Virus record (IMG/VR): IMGVR_UViG_3300020457_000124
Location: 1 to 21,177 of that record
Source: a virus
DNA: 21,177 bases
Reading direction: 5' to 3' (one strand)
The position numbers were made by a program, and so were the translations under genes. Shown here one piece after another: positions 2,163 to 15,827 of this stretch. The notes under the pieces were generated by a model. The model was given only the letters and a program-made list of their open reading frames with translations, searched no databases and had not been told where the DNA came from. Numbering within the stretch: position 1 is the first letter of the stretch; each line of letters begins with the position of its first letter.

Positions 2163-3080
2163 ATGTCTTTTGCTTCACTAAAGAAAGCTGCCACTAAAGG
2201 TAGTACTCTTAGTAAACTGACACAAGAGATAGAAAAACTAAACCAACCTCAAGGTGGAGGAGGTTCTGACGAACGTCTTTGGAAACCTGAGTTGGACAAG
2301 TCTGGTAACGGTTATGCTGTTATTAGATTCCTTCCTGCTCCAGACGGAGAGGATATGCCTTGGGCAAAGATCTGGTCACACTCCTTCAAAGGACCTGGTG
2401 GTCAGTGGTACATCGAGAACAGTTTGACCACTCTAGGTCAGAATGATCCTGTCGGTGAATTGAACAGGGAACTTTGGAACAGTGGTCGTGAACAGGATAA
2501 GTCAACTGCTAGAGTACAGAAGCGTAAGCTTTCTTACTACTCTAACATATATGTTGTTTCAGATCCAGCACATCCAGAGAACGAAGGTAAGGTATTCCTA
2601 TACAAGTATGGGAAGAAAATCTTTGACAAATTAGTTGAAGCAATGCAACCTGCATTTGCTGATGAGACTCCACTAGATCCATTTAATCTATGGAAGGGTG
2701 CTGACTTTAAAGTCAAGATCCGTAAGGTTGATGGGTACTGGAACTATGATAAGTCAGAGTTCGCAGCACCTGCTACACTAGGTGGATTTGATGATGGAGA
2801 ACTTGAGGAAATCTGGAAGAAGTCATACTCACTTGCTGAGTTTGAAGCCGCTAAGAATTTCAAGTCATATGATCAATTAAAAGCAAGATTGAATCTTGTA
2901 TTAGGTAAATCTTCACCACGTCCTGCACCTGTTGCAGTTGATGAGAGTGAAGAGGAAGTTGTACCTGCTAACTGGGGTAAAGAAGTATCAGACTTCAGAG
3001 AAAAAGCAGTAGCATCTGCTCCTGCATCTGGTGAAGAAGATACTTTATCTTACTTCCAATCCTTAGCAGAAGAGGACTGA
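2163..3080 (+). CDS. 32: gp32-like single-stranded DNA-binding protein
   Basis: A 305-aa counterpart of T4 gp32, which coats ssDNA during replication, recombination and repair. ATG 2163 is preferred over an in-frame ATG at 2112 because GGAGA lies just upstream and the family's N-terminus begins near SFASLKKA. The OB-fold core carries WSHSF (71-75), QWYIEN (81-86) and FKVKIRKVDGYWNYDKS (182-198). The last 50 residues are acidic and end in SYFQSLAEED, like the T4 C-terminal tail that recruits partner proteins. The protein contains no cysteine at all, so the T4 zinc site (one His, three Cys) cannot form; only the histidine position (H73) appears kept. A hairpin terminator follows. Confidence 0.93.
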   Translation: MSFASLKKAATKGSTLSKLTQEIEKLNQPQGGGGSDERLWKPELDKSGNGYAVIRFLPAPDGEDMPWAKIWSHSFKGPGGQWYIENSLTTLGQNDPVGELNRELWNSGREQDKSTARVQKRKLSYYSNIYVVSDPAHPENEGKVFLYKYGKKIFDKLVEAMQPAFADETPLDPFNLWKGADFKVKIRKVDGYWNYDKSEFAAPATLGGFDDGELEEIWKKSYSLAEFEAAKNFKSYDQLKARLNLVLGKSSPRPAPVAVDESEEEVVPANWGKEVSDFREKAVASAPASGEEDTLSYFQSLAEED

Positions 3081-3094
3081 TTATAAACTGGCAC

Positions 3095-3119
3095 AAGGAG
3101 GACTTAATATCCTCCTTTT
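3095..3119 (+). terminator. Hairpin terminator after gp32
   Basis: AAGGAGGA (3095-3102) pairs perfectly with TCCTCCTT (3110-3117) around a 7-base loop. The stem can extend to 12 bp with one mismatch (GCAC on the left against TTGC on the right). A short T run forms the descending arm. It lies 14 bases after the gp32 stop and separates this unit from the next. Confidence 0.7.
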
Positions 3120-3124
3120 GCTGT

Positions 3125-3130
3125 TATAAT
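3125..3130 (+). promoter_or_regulatory. Sigma-70-type -10 element TATAAT
   Basis: A consensus TATAAT follows the gp32 terminator and lies 27 bases upstream of the secreted-protein ATG. No convincing -35 is visible; the spacing window falls inside the terminator loop. It could start early or middle transcription of the 3152-5117 genes using host polymerase. Confidence 0.5.
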
Positions 3131-3151
3131 TAGTATATTAAACGGAGAATT

Positions 3152-3565
3152 ATGAAACTAGCACCTCTTCTCTTGCTCCCATTCCTAGCAGCAGCACCAG
3201 TTCAGGCGGGGTGGCAAGATTTATTCACACAAACTGGAGGTAGATCCTCTGAAAAGTGTACAAAAAAAGTTTATAACGAAGTCTATGTACCAGGTAACTA
3301 CAACAATCCTGGATATGTAGAGTACGAAACAGAAGTTGTAGAAATCCCTTGTAATAACAGACCTTATCAGTCATCATACAATTCAAGTCCTAGACCTTAC
3401 AGACCTTCACGTGATGGAAATGAGTGTGGAGATGGTAAGTATGCTGGTGGTTTATTGGGTGGTGGTCTTGCTGCTGCTATCTCACAAGGAGATGGTCGTT
3501 GGTGGGCAATCCCATTAGGTGTAGTAGTTGGAAGTTCAATAGGTTGTGATATGGATGGAGGCTAA
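3152..3565 (+). CDS. Secreted protein with glycine-zipper-like C-terminus
   Basis: A 137-aa protein that starts with a signal peptide: a hydrophobic run of leucines and alanines from residue 3, then PVQA before G20, a good signal peptidase I site. The mature part has four cysteines (C36, C67, C92, C132), which could form two disulfides, and a Tyr/Asn/Pro/Arg-rich middle. The end (98-131, YAGGLLGGGLAAAI then PLGVVVGSSIGC) resembles glycine-zipper segments of small envelope proteins. GGAG stands just before the ATG. The family is unknown to me. Export to the host periplasm or envelope is the simplest inference. Its stop overlaps the next ATG. Confidence 0.72.
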   Translation: MKLAPLLLLPFLAAAPVQAGWQDLFTQTGGRSSEKCTKKVYNEVYVPGNYNNPGYVEYETEVVEIPCNNRPYQSSYNSSPRPYRPSRDGNECGDGKYAGGLLGGGLAAAISQGDGRWWAIPLGVVVGSSIGCDMDGG

Positions 3566-3879
3566 TGGATATACATGATATACCTGGTGTAGGTGGATTC
3601 TATACAAAGAAAGAAGTAGATTCTTTAATAAAGTCTGCTGTAGATGAAGCGAGAAAAATTGATGAAGCATCTATGGCAAAGCATAACAGAGATGCTACTA
3701 TCATTAGTATGATACTAGGATTTACTGCTCTTGCTTTGTTTGTTGATGGATTGCTTCGTATACTCGGTATCATTCCACCATTTATGGACATCGATGTTAA
3801 CGTTATTGATGACATTATAGATAAGGTAGAGAGTGACATACTACCTCTAGTTCAAAAGATTCCAAGAAGAAATTTTTAA
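3565..3879 (+). CDS. Small single-helix membrane protein, function unknown
   Basis: A 104-aa protein with one strong hydrophobic segment (about residues 44-71), flanked by a charged helix with KKEV and DEARK before it and an acidic Asp/Ile-rich stretch followed by a basic end (KIPRRNF). ATG 3565 overlaps the stop of the secreted-protein gene (TAATG), so the two are probably translated together and may both act at the host envelope. The size and single helix fit many phage accessory membrane proteins, including holin-like ones, but nothing specific supports a holin call. Confidence 0.65.
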   Translation: MDIHDIPGVGGFYTKKEVDSLIKSAVDEARKIDEASMAKHNRDATIISMILGFTALALFVDGLLRILGIIPPFMDIDVNVIDDIIDKVESDILPLVQKIPRRNF

Positions 3880-3882
3880 ATT

Positions 3883-4407
3883 ATGAAAATTATTAATGAT
3901 TTTTTACCTGAAGAACAGTTCAAAGGTCTTCAGTCATATGTTATGGGCGAGTTCTTTCCTTGGTGGTATAACACTGAGGTTGATTTCCCGAATGATAATT
4001 CATACTTAGATGATTATCAGTTTACACACGTGTTCTATGCTGCTAAAGGTGTTGAACCATTCCCTGAAGAAGAATCTAAGTATCCTGATGCTGTTATTTT
4101 AGATCCAGTCTCTGCATTACTTAAGATTAATAAACCAACGAGAATTAAGGCAAACTTATTACCAAGAACAGAGAATAGAATTATTTTTAATTTTCATAAT
4201 GATATTAAAGAAAAAGATACAGATTATCCAGGTCAAACAGCAATCTTTTACGTCAATACTAATGATGGGTACACAGAATTTGAAGATGGTACTAGGGTAG
4301 AAAGTGTGGCAAATAAAATTGTCATCTTTGATTCTAAGTTAAAGCATAGAGGAACTACTTGCACAAATCAGAAGACTAGAGTTGTAATCAATTTAAATTA
4401 TGTGTGA
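3883..4407 (+). CDS. 2OG-Fe(II) oxygenase-like protein
   Basis: A 174-aa protein with the iron-binding pattern of 2-oxoglutarate/Fe(II) dioxygenases. H105-x-D107 (in NFHND) and distal H155 (in LKHRG) would hold the metal, and R166 (in KTRVVINLNY) would hold 2-oxoglutarate. Strands such as TAIFYVN and KIVIFDS match the double-stranded beta helix. Such genes are frequent in cyanomyoviruses and are usually compared with prolyl hydroxylases; the substrate is unknown. It follows the membrane-protein gene after 3 bases and overlaps the next oxygenase-like gene, so the two may act as a pair. Confidence 0.82.
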   Translation: MKIINDFLPEEQFKGLQSYVMGEFFPWWYNTEVDFPNDNSYLDDYQFTHVFYAAKGVEPFPEEESKYPDAVILDPVSALLKINKPTRIKANLLPRTENRIIFNFHNDIKEKDTDYPGQTAIFYVNTNDGYTEFEDGTRVESVANKIVIFDSKLKHRGTTCTNQKTRVVINLNYV

Positions 4408-5117
4408 TGTTATTTTTCCCCATTACTATTGTTGATGATTTCTTTCCTGATCCTGATGCTGTATTAGAATTAGCAGAGAAAGTAGATTACGATCAACCAA
4501 AGAAGACGAATTATCCTGGTGTTAGTTCTAGTAAACGTTTATATGAAATTGATGAGAGGTTAGCACAATATACTATAGAAAAAATGCTATCTACTTATTG
4601 GGATCCTGATGCTCATGAGTTTCATTGGAATGTTGATTCAGACTTTCAAAAAATAACCCCTCATAAGAATCCATATCTTAATAAGGGGTTGATTCATACT
4701 GATAATATTGTTGGACATCTTGCTACTGCTATAGTATATCTGAATAAAAATGATAGTTATAATGCAGGAACTTCTTTCTATTACAAGAAGGATGGATTGG
4801 AATCTTCTTTAGTATCTAGTGAGAGTATCAATCAAAGTTATATCCAACAGACTAATGAGTTTCACGAGACTGGTGTAGAAACAGAACGGTTAACTAAAGA
4901 GATAGAAAATCATCGTAAACATTTTGAAGAAACGATGAGAGTACAAGCAAAATATAATAGAATGGTATTGTTTCCTTCAGAAATGTGGCATAGTCAAACC
5001 ACTTATGGTGATGAAACTAGGTATACTGTAAGGTGTTTTGTCACTGATGTTTTAGCTATGGTTAAACCAAATAAAGGTATGAAAGCAAGACCACCGATGC
5101 TACGCTATATGAATTGA
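4407..5117 (+). CDS. Second 2OG-Fe(II) oxygenase-like protein (DUF6445-like)
   Basis: A 236-aa protein opening with the same kind of motif as its neighbour (ITIVDDFFPDPDAV). Candidate metal ligands are H97-x-D99 (in IHTDN) and H195 (in MWHSQ), with R209 (in YTVRCF) as the likely 2-oxoglutarate ligand. Between the two halves lies a long charged helix (about 152-182) not present in the first oxygenase. ATG 4407 shares a base with the upstream stop TGA; a GTG one codon earlier is an alternative. The general pattern resembles DUF6445, a group I associate with cyanophages. The substrate is unknown. Confidence 0.75.
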   Translation: MLFFPITIVDDFFPDPDAVLELAEKVDYDQPKKTNYPGVSSSKRLYEIDERLAQYTIEKMLSTYWDPDAHEFHWNVDSDFQKITPHKNPYLNKGLIHTDNIVGHLATAIVYLNKNDSYNAGTSFYYKKDGLESSLVSSESINQSYIQQTNEFHETGVETERLTKEIENHRKHFEETMRVQAKYNRMVLFPSEMWHSQTTYGDETRYTVRCFVTDVLAMVKPNKGMKARPPMLRYMN

Positions 5118-5127
5118 ACCTTAAATC

Positions 5128-5169
5128 ATTATAAAAAAACCCCCTATTTGTGAGGAATCCATTATAAAA
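5128..5169 (+). repeat. Repeated CATTATAAAA near the oxygenase operon end
   Basis: The 10-mer CATTATAAAA occurs twice within about 40 bases, before the small open frame at 5197. The second copy reads on into TACTG and could serve as a promoter -10 region for that frame. Both copies are AT-rich, so coincidence is possible. Confidence 0.35.
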
Positions 5170-5196
5170 TACTGTGTAAGATTCAACACAATACAA

Positions 5197-5367
5197 ATGT
5201 CAGGAGATTTTTTCTCACATAATGATCAACAACCGCCTTTGTGCAAGGCATCAAAAGCAATGGATGAGATTAAAGAATCTCGATGGATTGATACTAATTA
5301 CATTCTAGAAATAGAAAGTATGATAGTTAATGCTAGGTACAGGAATGGTAGCCCAATGCAAGAGTAA
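5197..5367 (+). CDS. Possible 56-aa protein, unknown
   Basis: An open frame from ATG 5197 to TAA 5365-5367 encodes 56 residues, beginning MSGDFFSHND, with a central amphipathic segment (KASKAMDEIKESRW) and one cysteine. Codon use looks like that of neighbouring genes and it fills most of the gap between convergent units. No clear ribosome site precedes it. I recognise no family; it could be a small phage protein or a chance frame. Confidence 0.5.
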   Translation: MSGDFFSHNDQQPPLCKASKAMDEIKESRWIDTNYILEIESMIVNARYRNGSPMQE

Positions 5368-8722: not shown

Positions 8723-9433
8723 ATGCCATTACCTAAATTAAATGTACCTAAGTACAAACTGAAGTTACCGTCCGATAATAGGACTGTGAACTATAGACCC
8801 TTTCTTGTTAAAGAGGAAAAACTACTTTTATTAGCAACTGAAACAGGTAGTCAGGAAGATATTGTTGAGGCAATTAAAAGAATTATCGTTGATTGTACAG
8901 ACATTCACGATATTGATAATTTGCCTACTTTTGATATTGAATATGTTTTCCTTCAAATACGTACTAAGTCAGTTGGTGAAAGTGTAGAAGTACAAGTAAC
9001 TTGTCCTGATGACGAAGAAACTGTTGTTCCTGTCAAGATACCTTTGAATGAAATCAAAGTTAAGAAAGACAAGAAGCACAAGAAAGAGATCAAATTGGGA
9101 ACTGATATTATTTTAACAATGAACTATCCTAGTTTGGATACGTTTGTTAAGATGAATTTCCAAGATGAAGAACCTACTGTTGATGCTGTTTTTGAAATGG
9201 CAGCAGGATGCGTAAAGCAAATTGCTGATGCTGAACAAGTATATGATGCTATGGATACTCCTAAAGAAGAATTAATAGAATTCTTTGATCAATTGAGTAG
9301 TAAGCAATTCCAAGAAGTCCAAGATTTCTTTGATACTATGCCGAAACTTTCTCACGTAGTTAAGGTAACTAATCCTAAGACTAAAAAAGAAAGTGATGTA
9401 ACTCTTGAAGGATTGTCAGCTTTTTTCGCCTAG
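8723..9433 (+). CDS. 26: gp26-like baseplate hub / tail assembly chaperone
   Basis: A 236-aa protein of the T4 gp26 baseplate type (T4 gp26 is 208 aa). Typical stretches are YRPFLVKEEKLLLLA near the start, a variable acidic and lysine-rich middle (VPVKIPLNEIKVKKDKK), and MNYPSLDTFVKM. Gp26 is needed for hub assembly; its position just before the tape-measure gene suggests a chaperone role like lambda gpG (inference). The frame ends with codons GCT TTT TTC GCC TAG. The T run there is a slippery heptamer that could move part of the ribosomes into the -1 frame and add 65 residues. No clear Shine-Dalgarno sequence precedes the ATG. Confidence 0.85.
   Translation: MPLPKLNVPKYKLKLPSDNRTVNYRPFLVKEEKLLLLATETGSQEDIVEAIKRIIVDCTDIHDIDNLPTFDIEYVFLQIRTKSVGESVEVQVTCPDDEETVVPVKIPLNEIKVKKDKKHKKEIKLGTDIILTMNYPSLDTFVKMNFQDEEPTVDAVFEMAAGCVKQIADAEQVYDAMDTPKEELIEFFDQLSSKQFQEVQDFFDTMPKLSHVVKVTNPKTKKESDVTLEGLSAFFA
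9407..9412 (+). promoter_or_regulatory. Shine-Dalgarno-like stimulator upstream of the slippery site
   Basis: GAAGGA lies inside the gp26 coding region, 8 bases before the heptamer. Internal Shine-Dalgarno-like sites about 10 bases upstream raise -1 frameshifting in the E. coli dnaX case. The hexamer also encodes Glu-Gly, so chance is possible. Confidence 0.5.
9421..9427 (+). promoter_or_regulatory. Programmed -1 ribosomal frameshift site T_TTT_TTC
   Basis: In the gp26 frame the bases read T_TTT_TTC, an exact X_XXY_YYZ slippery heptamer. One codon (GCC) separates it from the TAG stop at 9431-9433. A -1 slip moves the ribosome to CGC 9427-9429 and into a 65-codon open frame ending at 9624, giving a 300-aa gp26/gp51-like fusion in place of the 236-aa product. 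Confidence 0.75.
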
Positions 9434-9624
9434 CTCTACTTCATACTACCTTACAAACTTATTATGAAGTCAATTTTGCATTAATACACCACCACAAGTG
9501 GTCGTGTGAGTATATTGATCATTTGATGCCTTTTGAGAAAGAGATTTATATGAATCTCTTAATGAATTATCTTAAAGAGGAGGATAAACGGATGAAGGAG
9601 GAGCAAACAAAGAATAAACAATAA
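9427..9624 (+). CDS. 51: gp51-like C-terminal extension of gp26, read in the -1 frame
   Basis: The -1 frame after the slip codes 65 residues from CGC 9427 to TAA 9622-9624. It begins RLALLHTTLQTYYEVN, continues with HHHKWSCEYIDHLMPFEKEIY and ends in a charged helix (LKEEDKRMKEEQ). The His/Trp segment followed by MPFEKEIYMNLL resembles the C-terminal domain of T4-type gp51 and the T part of tail chaperones. The frame is open only from 9409, after TGA 9406. Its first usable starts are TTG 9523 and ATG 9526, beyond the conserved-looking part, so it is best explained as the tail of a frameshift fusion. The GTG of the tape-measure gene follows 10 bases later. The gp51 name is by resemblance and position. 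Confidence 0.7.
   Translation, partial: RLALLHTTLQTYYEVNFALIHHHKWSCEYIDHLMPFEKEIYMNLLMNYLKEEDKRMKEEQTKNKQ
9438..9470 (+). promoter_or_regulatory. Hairpin downstream of the frameshift site
   Basis: ACTTCATA (9438-9445) pairs perfectly with TATGAAGT (9463-9470) around a 17-base loop, starting 10 bases after the heptamer. That spacing is slightly longer than the usual 5-9 bases but workable for a stimulatory structure. A second, weaker hairpin with one mismatch lies at about 9486-9507. Confidence 0.55.
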
Positions 9625-9634
9625 CTCGTAACTA

Positions 9635-12600
9635 GTGGCAATAAACAACTTCACACATAAGTTTGTAAATGCTGGAGTAAAAGGACCACTGACTCCAGGG
9701 TTATTTGCTGCCAGAAAATCTATTATGGCAACAAATAGATTGGGAGCCTCTATTGCGAGTATTGGTAATGTTGCTAATGATATTAGAAAGATTCGTTTGG
9801 CAAGTGCAGCTAATACAATATTAGCAGAACAGGCAGAACGTAGAAGATTACAAAGAGAAAGGGATGCTGAAGCTGAAGATGCAGCAGAATTAAATAAGGA
9901 TTTTGAAAAAGGTGGTGATAAATCCCGTAAACCATCAACGGCAGAAAAGAAGAAGGGTAATAAGTGGTTTGGTTGGATGAATGGGTTTTTAGCACCCATA
10001 GTCGAGTTTTTTGCTTGGTTAATTAAGCTAACGGTTATTAAGAGTCTCTTGGAATGGATGGGAAATCCAGAGAACAAAGAGAGACTAAAGACATTTTTAA
10101 AGAATTTTACGTTTGTTGTTAAAAAGCTTGCCAGCTTTGCATCTTGGATTGTAAAGGATAATATATTGGATGGAATGGCCCAATTATTTGGGTCTGGGGG
10201 TGAAGACGGCAAAGATTCATTTATGGATCGTGTTGTTGGTCTTGGTAAACTTCTTTTTGGTTTTACTTTACTGAGATGGTTCTTCAATCCTCTAGCGATG
10301 ATTGGGGATATTGCAGGGATTTTAGATTTTATATTAAACTGGAGAGTCCCTAGATTTAGGATAAAGGGATTACAGAGACTTTGGGGTAAACGGTTAAGGA
10401 AGGGTTGGAAGACTATAAAGAATAGTAAGCGAGTTAAATCGATAGTTAATGTCGCTCGAAAACTTGCTAACCCAATAATAAAACCCCTAAAGTTTTTTGT
10501 TAAGCAGGGTAAATTATTTAAAGCTGGGTTTAAAGGTGGTAATACTGCTGCAGATCTTGCAAAATTAACTGGAAGAACATTTACTCATATTGCCACTGGT
10601 GGTGACAAAGCCAAGGATATGGGCAAGATGTTCAAGGCTGGTGAGAAGACTAAAGACTTATTGTCACGATGGTTTGGTAAAGGTAGTGAAGGTGGCGGTA
10701 TGCTCGCCAAGATGAATGAGTGGCGTAAGTTTACAATGGGTAAGGCTGGTGACTTTGGTAAACTTATTTCTGGTAAATGGAAGGGTGCTGTTGAAACAGT
10801 AGCTAGTGGTACTAGGAGGATGAAGAAATGGTTGAGTAATGGTTGGGATTATTTGGCTTCTGCACCTAAGAAAGTACAGCAAGCAGCATTTAAGAGATTT
10901 GTTGAACCAATAGCTAAGAAAATCAAACCATTTACCAGTAGAATGCAGAAACTGGGTAAAGGTATAAAGGATTTATGGGCTGGCACACCTATTGGTAAGG
11001 TTGTTAATAAGTCAGCTAAGAAAGCCTCTAAAGGTCTTAAAGGAATTCCTGTTATTGGTGGTTTGGTCAACTTATATTTTGCTATTGATTCATTTAAGAA
11101 TGGTGATACTGTTGGTGGTGTATTAGAAAGTGTAGCAGGTATCTTAGAATTGGGTGGTGCTATTGCTACGGCAACTGGTGTTGGTGCAGCTCTTGGTGGA
11201 CCAATGATGATTCTTGGAGGAGTCATTGATGCTTATTTACTTTCTAGAATAATACCTGGTGGTGTAGGTGAAAGTGTAATGAATTGGGAACGGACTAAGG
11301 CTGTTCCTGCATTACAAACACCATTTGAAACTGCTAAACAAGGTGCAAATTACGTTAAGGACAGTCTTGGTAAGAAGATTGGGGAAACATTTGATGGTCT
11401 TAATAAGTTTATAAAAGGTGAAAAGGATGCTGAGAAAACAAGGCATTTAACTGATGAACGTAAGGATGGAGATGGTGTACCAGAGGGACAATGGCCAGAT
11501 GATGGTAAAGGTTCAGGTAAAGATGGTTCAGGTACAGGAGGAGATGGTAAACCTAAGAAAAATTGGTGGGAGTCATTTACTGGTGCATTTAAAAATAAAG
11601 GACCAATAAACACTAATAGAAGTAAGAGATCTCAAGGTGGTAACAATCAATCTTGGAGAACTAATAAAAATAATACTCCTAAAGTTAAAAAAGAATATAA
11701 GTGGTGGGATCCAAGAGGATGGGGATCTAAAGGTGTAGTAAAAGGGAGTAGATCCAGATTTGGAGAAAGTGGTGGTAAGATTCCTTTAGCATTCCTTGGT
11801 AAGGTTTTTAGAGGTATTAGTAGAGGTATTGGTAGTGTATTTAAAGGTATAGGTGGTGCTATTAAGGGGGTTATAGGTGGTATACAGGGGATAATGAATA
11901 GTCCTTTGGGACAAATATTATCATTTGCTCTACCAATAATGTTCCCTGCTGCTGCTTGGCTGGGACCAGTACTGAAAGGTTTAAATGCAGTATCCGCATT
12001 TGCGTCTGGTAATTATCTAGGCGGTATAATGAGTATGGCAGGTGCCATTGGTAGTATTGGTACTAATGCTGCTGGTGTGGTAACTGCTAAGTCCATAATG
12101 GGTACTCCTAACTGGATGATTCGATTGCGAACATCTGGTTTTGGAAACTTTATGTCAAATTTACCAGGTAATGTTGACAAGTTCTTAGGAAGTAAGATGG
12201 GTAAAATTGGAATGGGAATACTTCAGGGTAATTATGGTGCTGCATTTAATGCTGCTGTAGATGGAACTGGATTGGGTGCTATGTTGGCTAACTTTGGTAA
12301 CCAGATAGATTCTGCTGGTTTAGGTGGTATATTAGGATCTATACCAGGATTAGGCCCAGCACTACAGAATATTCCAGGAATATCAGATATTGTTGGTATT
12401 GGTCAATTAGTAACAGGTGATTTTACACCAACTGGATTCATTCAGAATATGGCAGATAGACACGGTTTGGGAGGTCTTTATGGTGCTATAATGGGTATGG
12501 CAGATGGTGGTGATTTTAATAATGGTCTTAGATCATTGGCAGCAGAATTGAATGTCCCTCAAGAAGTCTTTGGTGTTGTTGATACCTATGCTATGTTGAG

Positions 12601-12775
12601 TGAAGGTGGAATGTCTGAAAAACAATCAATACAAAATGCTATTGGTAGTTTGCAGATTTTGAGTATTCCAGTTGTTCTTAAACAAATGGTTACTGCACCA
12701 ACTCCAATAGAAACTGGAAAGAGTGGTGGAGGAGGTAATCCTTTGTCGGGTCTTTTAGGGCGGTTAGGGTTTTGA
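9635..12775 (+). CDS. Probable tape-measure / hub protein (gp29-like position)
   Basis: A 1046-aa protein following gp26/gp51-like, the usual place of a tape measure. GTG 9635 is the start: an in-frame stop lies just upstream, and the N-terminus (FTHKFVNAGVKGP) looks like that of its family. No Shine-Dalgarno sequence is near, so translation may be coupled to the preceding frame. It has a charged helical stretch (48-82), a hydrophobic helical module (118-220) containing WMGNPENKERLK, several Gly/Ala-rich hydrophobic segments (about 470-540 and 730-820), a linker rich in Gly, Asp and Lys (about 610-650) and a Gly-rich end. Tape measures set tail length, and this one is much longer than T4 gp29 (590 aa). 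The 118-220 module recurs in the next gene. Confidence 0.75.
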   Translation: MAINNFTHKFVNAGVKGPLTPGLFAARKSIMATNRLGASIASIGNVANDIRKIRLASAANTILAEQAERRRLQRERDAEAEDAAELNKDFEKGGDKSRKPSTAEKKKGNKWFGWMNGFLAPIVEFFAWLIKLTVIKSLLEWMGNPENKERLKTFLKNFTFVVKKLASFASWIVKDNILDGMAQLFGSGGEDGKDSFMDRVVGLGKLLFGFTLLRWFFNPLAMIGDIAGILDFILNWRVPRFRIKGLQRLWGKRLRKGWKTIKNSKRVKSIVNVARKLANPIIKPLKFFVKQGKLFKAGFKGGNTAADLAKLTGRTFTHIATGGDKAKDMGKMFKAGEKTKDLLSRWFGKGSEGGGMLAKMNEWRKFTMGKAGDFGKLISGKWKGAVETVASGTRRMKKWLSNGWDYLASAPKKVQQAAFKRFVEPIAKKIKPFTSRMQKLGKGIKDLWAGTPIGKVVNKSAKKASKGLKGIPVIGGLVNLYFAIDSFKNGDTVGGVLESVAGILELGGAIATATGVGAALGGPMMILGGVIDAYLLSRIIPGGVGESVMNWERTKAVPALQTPFETAKQGANYVKDSLGKKIGETFDGLNKFIKGEKDAEKTRHLTDERKDGDGVPEGQWPDDGKGSGKDGSGTGGDGKPKKNWWESFTGAFKNKGPINTNRSKRSQGGNNQSWRTNKNNTPKVKKEYKWWDPRGWGSKGVVKGSRSRFGESGGKIPLAFLGKVFRGISRGIGSVFKGIGGAIKGVIGGIQGIMNSPLGQILSFALPIMFPAAAWLGPVLKGLNAVSAFASGNYLGGIMSMAGAIGSIGTNAAGVVTAKSIMGTPNWMIRLRTSGFGNFMSNLPGNVDKFLGSKMGKIGMGILQGNYGAAFNAAVDGTGLGAMLANFGNQIDSAGLGGILGSIPGLGPALQNIPGISDIVGIGQLVTGDFTPTGFIQNMADRHGLGGLYGAIMGMADGGDFNNGLRSLAAELNVPQEVFGVVDTYAMLSEGGMSEKQSIQNAIGSLQILSIPVVLKQMVTAPTPIETGKSGGGGNPLSGLLGRLGF

Positions 12776-12806: not shown

Positions 12807-15800
12807 ATGGCTATTAAGAAAACCACCAGAATTAATCTTTATAAGTTCGTTGATACGAAGATGGAATCTTCCAAGGCAGGAGGAGAAACCACTGCGATTG
12901 CGAAGAGTATCAATGCACAAACTTCAGCCATAAACAATATGGGTAGTACCATTAATGGTATTGCTAGTGTATTAGTTGATATAAAGAAGATTGAACTCCA
13001 TAAACTTAAGATGGAGGAGGATGCGAAAAGAAGATCCTTTAAACCTAAGTATGATAAGGTAAAACCTAACGCATTTAAAAAATTATTTCAGGCAGTAAAG
13101 GCATATAAGGTAAAGGGATTCTTAGAGAGTATGCTTTCTTTCTTGGGTGCTTTACTTAAGTTTTTAATTATTAAACCAGCTTTGCAATGGCTGGGAGACC
13201 CGAAAAATAAGGAGAAGATAAAAAAATCACTAGAGACATTAGATAAAGTTTTTAAATGGTTAACTAAGTTTCTTGGTGGGCAAATTGTTGCTACTGTTAA
13301 TGATTTAGCTGCTCTTCTTTCAGAAGATACTGATGGTTGGACAAAGGTAAAGAAATTTACTAAACTCTGGCTTAAGTTCTCAGCAGCAATGATAGGAATT
13401 AGATTTCTTAGAAATCCTGTCAAACTTTTAAGGCAAGTTAAGACTGTTGGTCGTCTTTTATTGGAGAAGACGAGATTTGCTAAGTTTCAATTAACTAAAA
13501 GAAAGAAATTTTTAACTAGAACTGGAGGTAGGGCTGGAAGATTCTTCCTTGGTGGATTTATTGGTGGTGCTGCTGTAGCAGCATTTATGAATTGGATGGT
13601 CAATAGAAATAAAGATGACCAAAGTGGTAGTGATGGTGAAGGTGATTCTAGTAGTACCAATGAGAGTGGTGATATTGGAAATAGTAGGGAAAAAGATAGG
13701 GCTAGATCTAAAAGAGATTTTGATCAGGATTTAACTAGTGCAATATATGGTGCGTTGGGTCTAGAGACTCCAAAACAGAAGAAAGAGAAAGAAAAGAAGC
13801 AGAAACAATGGTGGAATCCAGGTAATTGGTTTGGTGGTAAGAAGCAAGATGAAGATAAGAAAAAGAGTGAAAAGATTCCTAATTTCTTAGGGGTTCTTTT
13901 AAATTTACAAGGTGCTAATGAACAAGCTAAAGATCTAGTAAAGACATTTAATAGAGAGACTAACGATCTTAAGAGTAATTGGGCTGATGCTGATGGTACT
14001 GAAAAGGCACGAATAGGTCTTGGTCTTTTCAATCAGATTAAAGGTTTTCTTGGTGTAGAATCCGAAAAAATTGATTCAATTACCAGTAGAGCAGATGAGG
14101 TACTTCAGGGTACACAAAATGCAATGCAAAATGGTGATACTAATGTACTTAAAACTTTTCAAGAACTTCTTGGAAGGGAACAAGGTGGTATCGTTAAGAT
14201 GGCCAATGGTGGTCGTAGTGGTTTCATTGATGGTCCTGATACTGGATATCCAGTATCTTTAGACGGTAAGAAAGTTAATTTTATTGGTCATGGACTAGAA
14301 AAATTCGATATGAAAGGATCTAGTGCCTACGTAACACCAATTGATAATTTTGCTACAAGACAAGATCCAACTCTTACTAATAGAAAGGCAATAGAAGGTA
14401 AGAAGTTAGGATTCCATACAGATACATTCTTACCAAAAGCAAGTCAGGGTGGTGGATTTAATTTATTTAATCCAATGTCTTGGTTTAGTAGAGGTGGTAA
14501 AGAAAGTAGAGCAGATCAGTTCTTCAGAGGGGCTTACGGAGATAGAAATGTACAGATTCAAGGAAGTGGATTAGCAGCTCAAGTTGGTCGTAACCGTCAA
14601 AATTTAAATGCCATCATGCAGGATCTGGGATATAGTAAGGGTGGGATGCTTAGGATGATGGAAGGTGGTGGATTGATGACTGGGTTTGATTGGAAGAAGG
14701 GTAGTGCGTGGAAACCAAAGGGAGAAGGAAAGCAGAAACACGGAAAACCTTATGGATTCCCTCAAGCATATAGAGAACCTCAGTCTGGTGGTTTAGGAAT
14801 TCTTCAAAGAATGATTCTTGCTTCTGGTAGTGATGACCTTACAATGGCTCTATTGGCAAGAACTGTTATGAATAGAAAAGCAGTACTTGATGGTGGTGGA
14901 ACAGGATTTAAAGCAAAGAGTAGTAGTCTTTATGATATATTGATGGCTCCTGGTGAGTATCCTAATATTCAGAATAATAAGTTTGCACAAAATTATAATT
15001 CTGCTCAATTGAATAAGGCAGGGCAAGCAATTGGATTGGCTAAGAATTCTAAATTGCTTAGAGAAAGACTGCAAGAACAAGGAATAGATCCTCATACAGC
15101 AATGCAGATTGTTACTGCAACTACCTATAAACAAGGATCTCTTATTGGTAAGAAGCAATTGGGTGAGATGTTTGGACGTAAACAACAAGCACAATATGGT
15201 AAATTCCAATTTAGTGGTAGTAATAATCCATTATTAAGTAAAATTATGCCTGGTATGAATCTACAGAAGATGAAAGGATTACAGGGTATTGTTGGTGGAT
15301 TAATGGGTAAAGATGGTGAAGATAGTACAGCAGGTCAATTAATTAAGGCAATTGCTGGTGGTGGAAAAGGTGAAGCACCTGGAATGATGGATACTTTATT
15401 TGGTATGTTTGGAATGCCTACTAAGAAAGGTGGTGGTGGTAAAGGAAACCAAGGTGCTGGACCAATTGGTACTGCATTTAAAGCATTATTGGGTGGTAAG
15501 AAGAAAAAGAGTGGAAAAGAAAAGGATGCAGAACAGCAGAGGATGTTCAGAGAAAGACAGAAACAGAATATGATTCAACAGGGAGTTAATCAGAAAAATG
15601 CTGCTGCTAGAGAAACTATGGCACGTGCTCAGGAACTAACTAATACAACAATACAAGCAGTTTCTAAATCTAATGAGAAAGTTATGCAGGGTATTTCAAT
15701 TGCAAACCAGGCAGTACAAAGATCTGCTGCTTCTTCTCAAGGAGGAGGAGGTGGTGGAGGTGGTCTTATGGGATTCCTTAAGAAAACTGGTGCTGCCCTT

Positions 15801-15827
15801 CTTGCATCTCAAAAAGGTAAGTCATAA
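12807..15827 (+). CDS. Large tail protein, paralogue of the tape-measure-like protein
   Basis: A 1006-aa protein. Residues 103-207 match the module of the upstream gene (WLGDPKNKEKIK against WMGNPENKERLK; RFLRNP against RWFFNP). A Gly/Ala hydrophobic segment (about 237-265) and a linker rich in Ser, Asp and Lys follow. At about 465-560 come GGIVKMANGG, VNFIGHGLEKF and SSAYVTPIDNF, a block seen in many tail proteins. At about 669-770, LLARTVMNRKAVL and APGEYPNIQN recall SleB-type cell-wall hydrolases, but the catalytic Glu is not evident. The end is helical with a run of eight glycines. GGAG precedes the ATG, and the stop overlaps gp27. It is probably a virion component, perhaps injected or near the tail tip. 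Confidence 0.72.
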   Translation: MAIKKTTRINLYKFVDTKMESSKAGGETTAIAKSINAQTSAINNMGSTINGIASVLVDIKKIELHKLKMEEDAKRRSFKPKYDKVKPNAFKKLFQAVKAYKVKGFLESMLSFLGALLKFLIIKPALQWLGDPKNKEKIKKSLETLDKVFKWLTKFLGGQIVATVNDLAALLSEDTDGWTKVKKFTKLWLKFSAAMIGIRFLRNPVKLLRQVKTVGRLLLEKTRFAKFQLTKRKKFLTRTGGRAGRFFLGGFIGGAAVAAFMNWMVNRNKDDQSGSDGEGDSSSTNESGDIGNSREKDRARSKRDFDQDLTSAIYGALGLETPKQKKEKEKKQKQWWNPGNWFGGKKQDEDKKKSEKIPNFLGVLLNLQGANEQAKDLVKTFNRETNDLKSNWADADGTEKARIGLGLFNQIKGFLGVESEKIDSITSRADEVLQGTQNAMQNGDTNVLKTFQELLGREQGGIVKMANGGRSGFIDGPDTGYPVSLDGKKVNFIGHGLEKFDMKGSSAYVTPIDNFATRQDPTLTNRKAIEGKKLGFHTDTFLPKASQGGGFNLFNPMSWFSRGGKESRADQFFRGAYGDRNVQIQGSGLAAQVGRNRQNLNAIMQDLGYSKGGMLRMMEGGGLMTGFDWKKGSAWKPKGEGKQKHGKPYGFPQAYREPQSGGLGILQRMILASGSDDLTMALLARTVMNRKAVLDGGGTGFKAKSSSLYDILMAPGEYPNIQNNKFAQNYNSAQLNKAGQAIGLAKNSKLLRERLQEQGIDPHTAMQIVTATTYKQGSLIGKKQLGEMFGRKQQAQYGKFQFSGSNNPLLSKIMPGMNLQKMKGLQGIVGGLMGKDGEDSTAGQLIKAIAGGGKGEAPGMMDTLFGMFGMPTKKGGGGKGNQGAGPIGTAFKALLGGKKKKSGKEKDAEQQRMFRERQKQNMIQQGVNQKNAAARETMARAQELTNTTIQAVSKSNEKVMQGISIANQAVQRSAASSQGGGGGGGGLMGFLKKTGAALLASQKGKS

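Follow-up and report, generated by a model that had tools for sequence, protein, structure and literature searches.

The stretch of DNA analysed here, called the window below, comprises 21,177 nt (positions 1-21,177 of IMG/VR record IMGVR_UViG_3300020457_000124) from an ocean virus of the T4-like cyanophage type. It carries a gp26 gene, a gp51-like reading frame that continues from the gp26 3′ end in the −1 frame, and an ORF for a tape-measure-like protein. The features of the locus are:

8723..9433, plus strand: gp26 ORF, short form, 236 aa (PF12322, E 1.3e-73; phrog_150, E 1.3e-85)
9407..9412, plus strand: GAAGGA, candidate stimulator resembling an SD sequence, 8 nt ahead of the heptamer (such a motif is present in 94 of 102 representative loci)
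9421..9427, plus strand: slippery heptamer T_TTT_TTC in gp26 phase
9427..9624, plus strand: gp51-like tail of the predicted long form, read in the −1 frame (R + 64 aa + stop)
9431..9433, plus strand: zero-frame stop TAG of gp26
9438..9470, plus strand: hairpin with arms 9438-9445 and 9463-9470, 10 nt past the heptamer, candidate stimulator
9635..12775, plus strand: tape-measure-like protein, 1046 aa (phrog_790, named 'endolysin', E 3.6e-116; position and size)

The gp26 protein matched the profile of PF12322, a tail assembly chaperone/baseplate hub family, over its full length (247.7 bits; cutoff 24.5). An AlphaFold model built with a 50-sequence alignment reached a pLDDT of 84 (36 without the alignment), and its best named viral structure matches were mostly other baseplate hub/gp26 proteins. 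The PDB structure search with this model gave no significant match among those listed; the HK97 gp13 tail assembly chaperone (2ob9_B) had the highest probability among them (0.25, TM 0.42 on the target) but an E of 1.2, a result compatible with a TAC fold though no proof of one. A sequence search of the PDB returned no match, and NCBIfam yielded nothing useful.

The ORF at 9635-12775 presumably encodes the tape measure protein. Gp26 and its tail (8723-9624) lie directly upstream of it, in the position of a lambda G/GT-type chaperone, where a first-pass annotation of the window had also placed them. In HTVC008M, the 'putative tail tape measure' comes one small ORF later. In the window, 9635-12775 and 12807-15827 encode adjacent tape-measure-like proteins of ~1000 aa which have ~230 N-terminal residues in common (28% identity, E 2e-12), apparently a duplicated pair of tail proteins that PHROGs names 'endolysin'.

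The 3′ end of gp26 reads gaa gga ttg tca gct ttt ttc gcc TAG. The end codons GCT TTT TTC GCC TAG place the heptamer T_TTT_TTC (9421-9427) in gp26 phase, one codon ahead of the stop, as the first-pass annotation had proposed. A ribosome that slipped there would produce a long form of 300 aa (235 gp26 residues, one Arg and 64 further residues) besides the 236 aa short form; ORF coordinates and slip-site arithmetic bear out the product sizes given earlier. The short form would end in the zero-frame peptide ESDVTLEGLSAFFA. For the long form, SAFF-RLALLH had been put forward as a junction peptide. Trypsin cleaves this peptide at its Arg, so that the diagnostic tryptic peptide of the long form would instead be ESDVTLEGLSAFFR.

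We examined the conservation of the heptamer in 199 gp26 loci from IMG/VR and named phages, which had been gathered by protein similarity with search patterns that never covered the shift site. In 198 of these loci, gp26 stopped 0-3 codons after an in-phase T_TTT_TT(C/T/G), the final base being C in 194, T in three and G in one, which answers the proposal to look for a conserved X_XXY_YYZ heptamer at gp26 3′ ends. Among 102 representatives (loci with <85% C-terminal identity), 98 carried exactly T_TTT_TTC, where Phe codon use and third-base T in these genes predict 8.6%. The codon preceding the T run ended in T in all 102, and the residue it encodes varied (S, A, N, D, T, G). Numerical P values for this conservation are overstated when sequences count as independent; the pattern nonetheless holds across families.

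The sole locus lacking the heptamer was that of Stenotrophomonas phage IME-SM1 (L097, NC_054952; about locus position 2240). Here, a run of five Ts lets gp26 read on to 280 aa and leaves the tail in the +1 frame. Its sister Yut2 (L210) has six Ts (gat ttt ttc ggc TGA), which makes a sequencing difference in the IME-SM1 homopolymer likely.

Only two of the heptamers in the window led to a long −1 extension past the stop: T_TTT_TTC at 9421-9427 and T_TTA_AAT at 4392-4398. The latter was not considered further: the gene after it has its own GTG/ATG start and a 4-nt overlap, and the relatives of the two genes differ in phage records. The genes concerned, 3883-4407 and 4404-5117, are joined by GTGATG and are apparently distant relatives of one another (both weakly TIGR02466, both phrog_274).

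Starting at 9409, the −1 frame stays open until its stop at 9624, and the tail sequence begins LALLHTTLQTYYEVNFALIHHHK. For the tail, phrog_634 (gp51, 'baseplate hub assembly catalyst') gave a match at E 3e-28, and phrog_150, to which gp26 belongs, matched with its C-terminal end (E 4e-4); the tail had matches in 574 phage records. Its median pN/pS was 0.18 (3392 pairs), whereas the same stretch gave 1.1 and 2.2 in the other two frames, both of which hold stops in every sequence. Judged by these substitution patterns, the tail frame is under strong purifying selection at the protein level, in agreement with the −1 frame coding anticipated in the first-pass annotation.

In the −1 frame, Arg directly follows the heptamer in 87 of the 102 representatives, while the zero-frame codon overlapping it specifies a range of residues (A, G, V, S, E and others). 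The conserved part of the −1 frame therefore reaches back to the slip site, which precedes every start codon available in the window's lineage. In the window, this frame offers its first start, TTG, at 9523, 31 codons beyond the junction, and then ATG at 9526; the window thus has no start ahead of the conserved region from which a free-standing gp51 could be made, as had been claimed. An ATG two codons past the stop overlap was present in 56 of the 102 representatives, mostly of a sister clade, but is missing from the lineage of the window. A separate tail could also start there by reinitiation, and phages of the sister clade might additionally make a short tail protein from this ATG.

We next compared RNA folding energies with those of dinucleotide shuffles (expressed as z). 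Across 99 divergent sequences, there was a sharp minimum in the 70 nt directly after the gp26 stop (mean z −2.05), while most of the other segments examined on either side gave z of about 0 to −0.6. A second, smaller dip (z −1.41; 96 sequences) lay ~200 nt past the stop, corresponding to ~9630-9700 near the start of the tape-measure-like gene.

In the sister clade, an 11-bp hairpin begins 5 nt past the heptamer; 84.5% of its cells were paired (at most 48% when the position was slid), and 30 cells had changed on both sides, compared with 9.7±2.3 in shuffles. The ATG at codon +2 falls within the 5′ arm of this conserved hairpin. The perfect 8-bp hairpin reported earlier in the window, 10 bases past the heptamer, does exist, but on its own was modestly better than chance (z −1.72; 12 of 200 shuffles were as good). 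In 34 near relatives, 73.5% of its cells were paired, compared with at most 43% in slid controls, and covariation was weak. RNAalifold predicted no consensus pairs for the clade of the window; it is therefore the position-specific z-scores and the sister clade that carry the case for a stimulatory structure. These point to a downstream RNA structure such as a −1 frameshift site would carry, and the window's own stem hints at it weakly. The SD-like stretch upstream of the heptamer encodes Glu-Gly, which is also conserved as protein; its conservation is therefore weak, and not independent, evidence for a stimulatory role.

Most GenBank records annotate gp51 as a separate small gene, which would be translated by reinitiation or coupling after the gp26 stop. 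Such CDSs are found in many phages, with starts that differ between records; stop/start overlaps are present in S-CRM01 and Rhizobium Y68, and the ATG at codon +2 would be a suitable start in the 56 representatives that have it. In the window and most of its near relatives, however, there is no start before codon +18 or +31, which lies inside the conserved domain, and the −1 frame is conserved from the heptamer onwards, upstream of any start. A separate gene also leaves the invariance of the heptamer unexplained, and T4 carries a fused long protein. We consider this explanation very improbable.

The probability that the polymerase rather than the ribosome slips on the T6 run, giving mixed mRNAs, is slighter still. 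The run is homopolymeric and the same product would be expected, but the phase of T_TTT_TTC, the final C in 194 of 199 loci and the downstream RNA structure form a ribosomal pattern. Six Ts are short for efficient polymerase slippage. That the heptamer is a chance occurrence beside a decayed or intergenic stretch could be argued from the abundance of in-phase X_XXY_YYZ heptamers in this AT-rich window (36 in 20 genes). Its conservation in 198 of 199 loci indicates that it is not due to chance, and together with the pN/pS of 0.18 and the homology to phrog_634 refutes this idea, to which we attach next to no probability.

In T4, genes 26 and 51 adjoin on opposite strands (3803-4429 and 4480-5229 of locus L102). 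The T4 record annotates their products as separate hub proteins and does not mention paralogy. We found that the two are paralogues (BLASTP E 2e-6). PF12322 matched T4 gp26 across its whole length, and in T4 gp51 it matched residues 1-201 (E 3.9e-52), which are followed by the tail that cyanophages encode in the −1 frame (phrog_634, E 1.2e-23). Since cyanophage gp26 plus tail is homologous to T4 gp51, gp26 and gp51 correspond to the short and long forms of one protein, which supports the interpretation offered in the first-pass annotation. The frameshift itself does not extend to T4: its gene 26 has lost the heptamer and ends in gag ttc ttt gag tta cta taa. By sequence comparison, T4 encodes the short and the long form as two divergent paralogous genes, while cyanophages and others use the frameshift.

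Cyanophage and vibriophage gp51 have been reported to be ~200 N-terminal residues short (PMC3037559); the 'missing' part corresponds to gp26. T4 gp26 and gp51 have been listed as hub assembly chaperones, and gp51 described as essential with unknown function (PMC3004832).

RB43 (L211) differs from T4 in having its gp51-like (2501-3241) and gp26-like (3237-3794) genes in tandem on one strand. Straboviridae infecting Vibrio, Aeromonas (Ah1) and Cronobacter (S13) also have the frameshift type. When a tree was built from the shared domain, one branch (99/94) set apart the frameshift genes and another (100/99) the gp51 genes; some branches are long and the tree cannot be rooted, so that it is compatible with either frameshift or duplication having come first. 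It is possible, but we regard it as doubtful, that gp26/gp51 outside T4-type Straboviridae generally have a −1 frameshift together with a conserved, covarying hairpin (in cyanophages, a pelagiphage, some vibriophages, and phages of Aeromonas, Cronobacter, Stenotrophomonas and rhizobia), and that the T4-type lineage replaced this arrangement once by gene duplication.

Taken together, the site and its frame, their conservation, the coding selection on the tail, the RNA structure signal and the homology to T4 gp26 and gp51, all read from sequence, make it highly probable that the tail assembly chaperone gene of this phage undergoes a programmed −1 ribosomal frameshift from gp26 to gp26-gp51. The first-pass annotation had proposed the same, and the lack of a tail start in the lineage also speaks for it. 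Most ribosomes would stop at TAG 9431 and release gp26, the short form (TAC-N). A minority would slip back by one base with P- and A-site tRNAs on TTT-TTC of the heptamer, aided by the downstream RNA hairpin and possibly by the upstream SD-like stretch, and would read the −1 frame to 9624, yielding the 300 aa gp26-gp51 (long form, TAC-NC). That slippage takes place in the cell, how often it does so, and that the products act as chaperones are inferred from these features. If the system works like lambda gpG/gpGT, the tape measure protein would be coated by numerous short-form and a few long-form copies, tail tube subunits would be recruited through the C-terminal tail of the latter, and both forms would then leave. 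Binding to the tape measure, a need in tail assembly and absence from the virion are putative properties assigned by homology.

The resemblance to lambda is one of organization: one gene, located immediately before the tape measure gene, gives a short and a long chaperone by a −1 shift close to its 3′ end. In contrast, lambda gpG/gpGT have no detectable sequence relation to gp26 or the tail, and the lambda slippery site is G_GGA_AAG. According to Atkins et al. (2016), conservation of the G-T frameshift is wide among long-tailed phages 'except T4' (PMC5009743). The tail assembly chaperones of Vandenendeviridae and Andersonviridae (PMC12846349) are likewise encoded upstream of the tape measure and use a −1 shift at a poly-T motif (an invariant GTTTTT), but belong to different phage families.

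The first-pass annotation was not aware of a description for T4-type gp26/gp51. According to two citing papers (PMC12846349, PMC10885494), Vladimirov, Gautam and Davidson (2022, Virology 566:9-15) had already identified tail assembly chaperone genes of T4-like phages. PRFect refers to that work for the duplicated arrangement of some T4-like phages, in which a short gene accompanies a fused long one; in the Adele paper, it is the reference for −1 frameshift signals of the poly-T kind in the TAC-N genes of T4-like phages. From the matching description and our homology results, we infer that the genes concerned are 26 and 51. As far as these citations convey, our finding of a frameshift is correct but essentially known; both cases involve poly-T signals, and the present one is another genome with the frameshift type. 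The breadth of conservation and the covarying hairpin may add to the earlier work.

These results suggest that 'gp51' in hundreds of marine phage records, where it has inconsistent starts or is left unannotated, should be re-read as the C-terminal part of a frameshifted chaperone. The role of T4 gp51 as the long form of a tape-measure chaperone likewise gains support.
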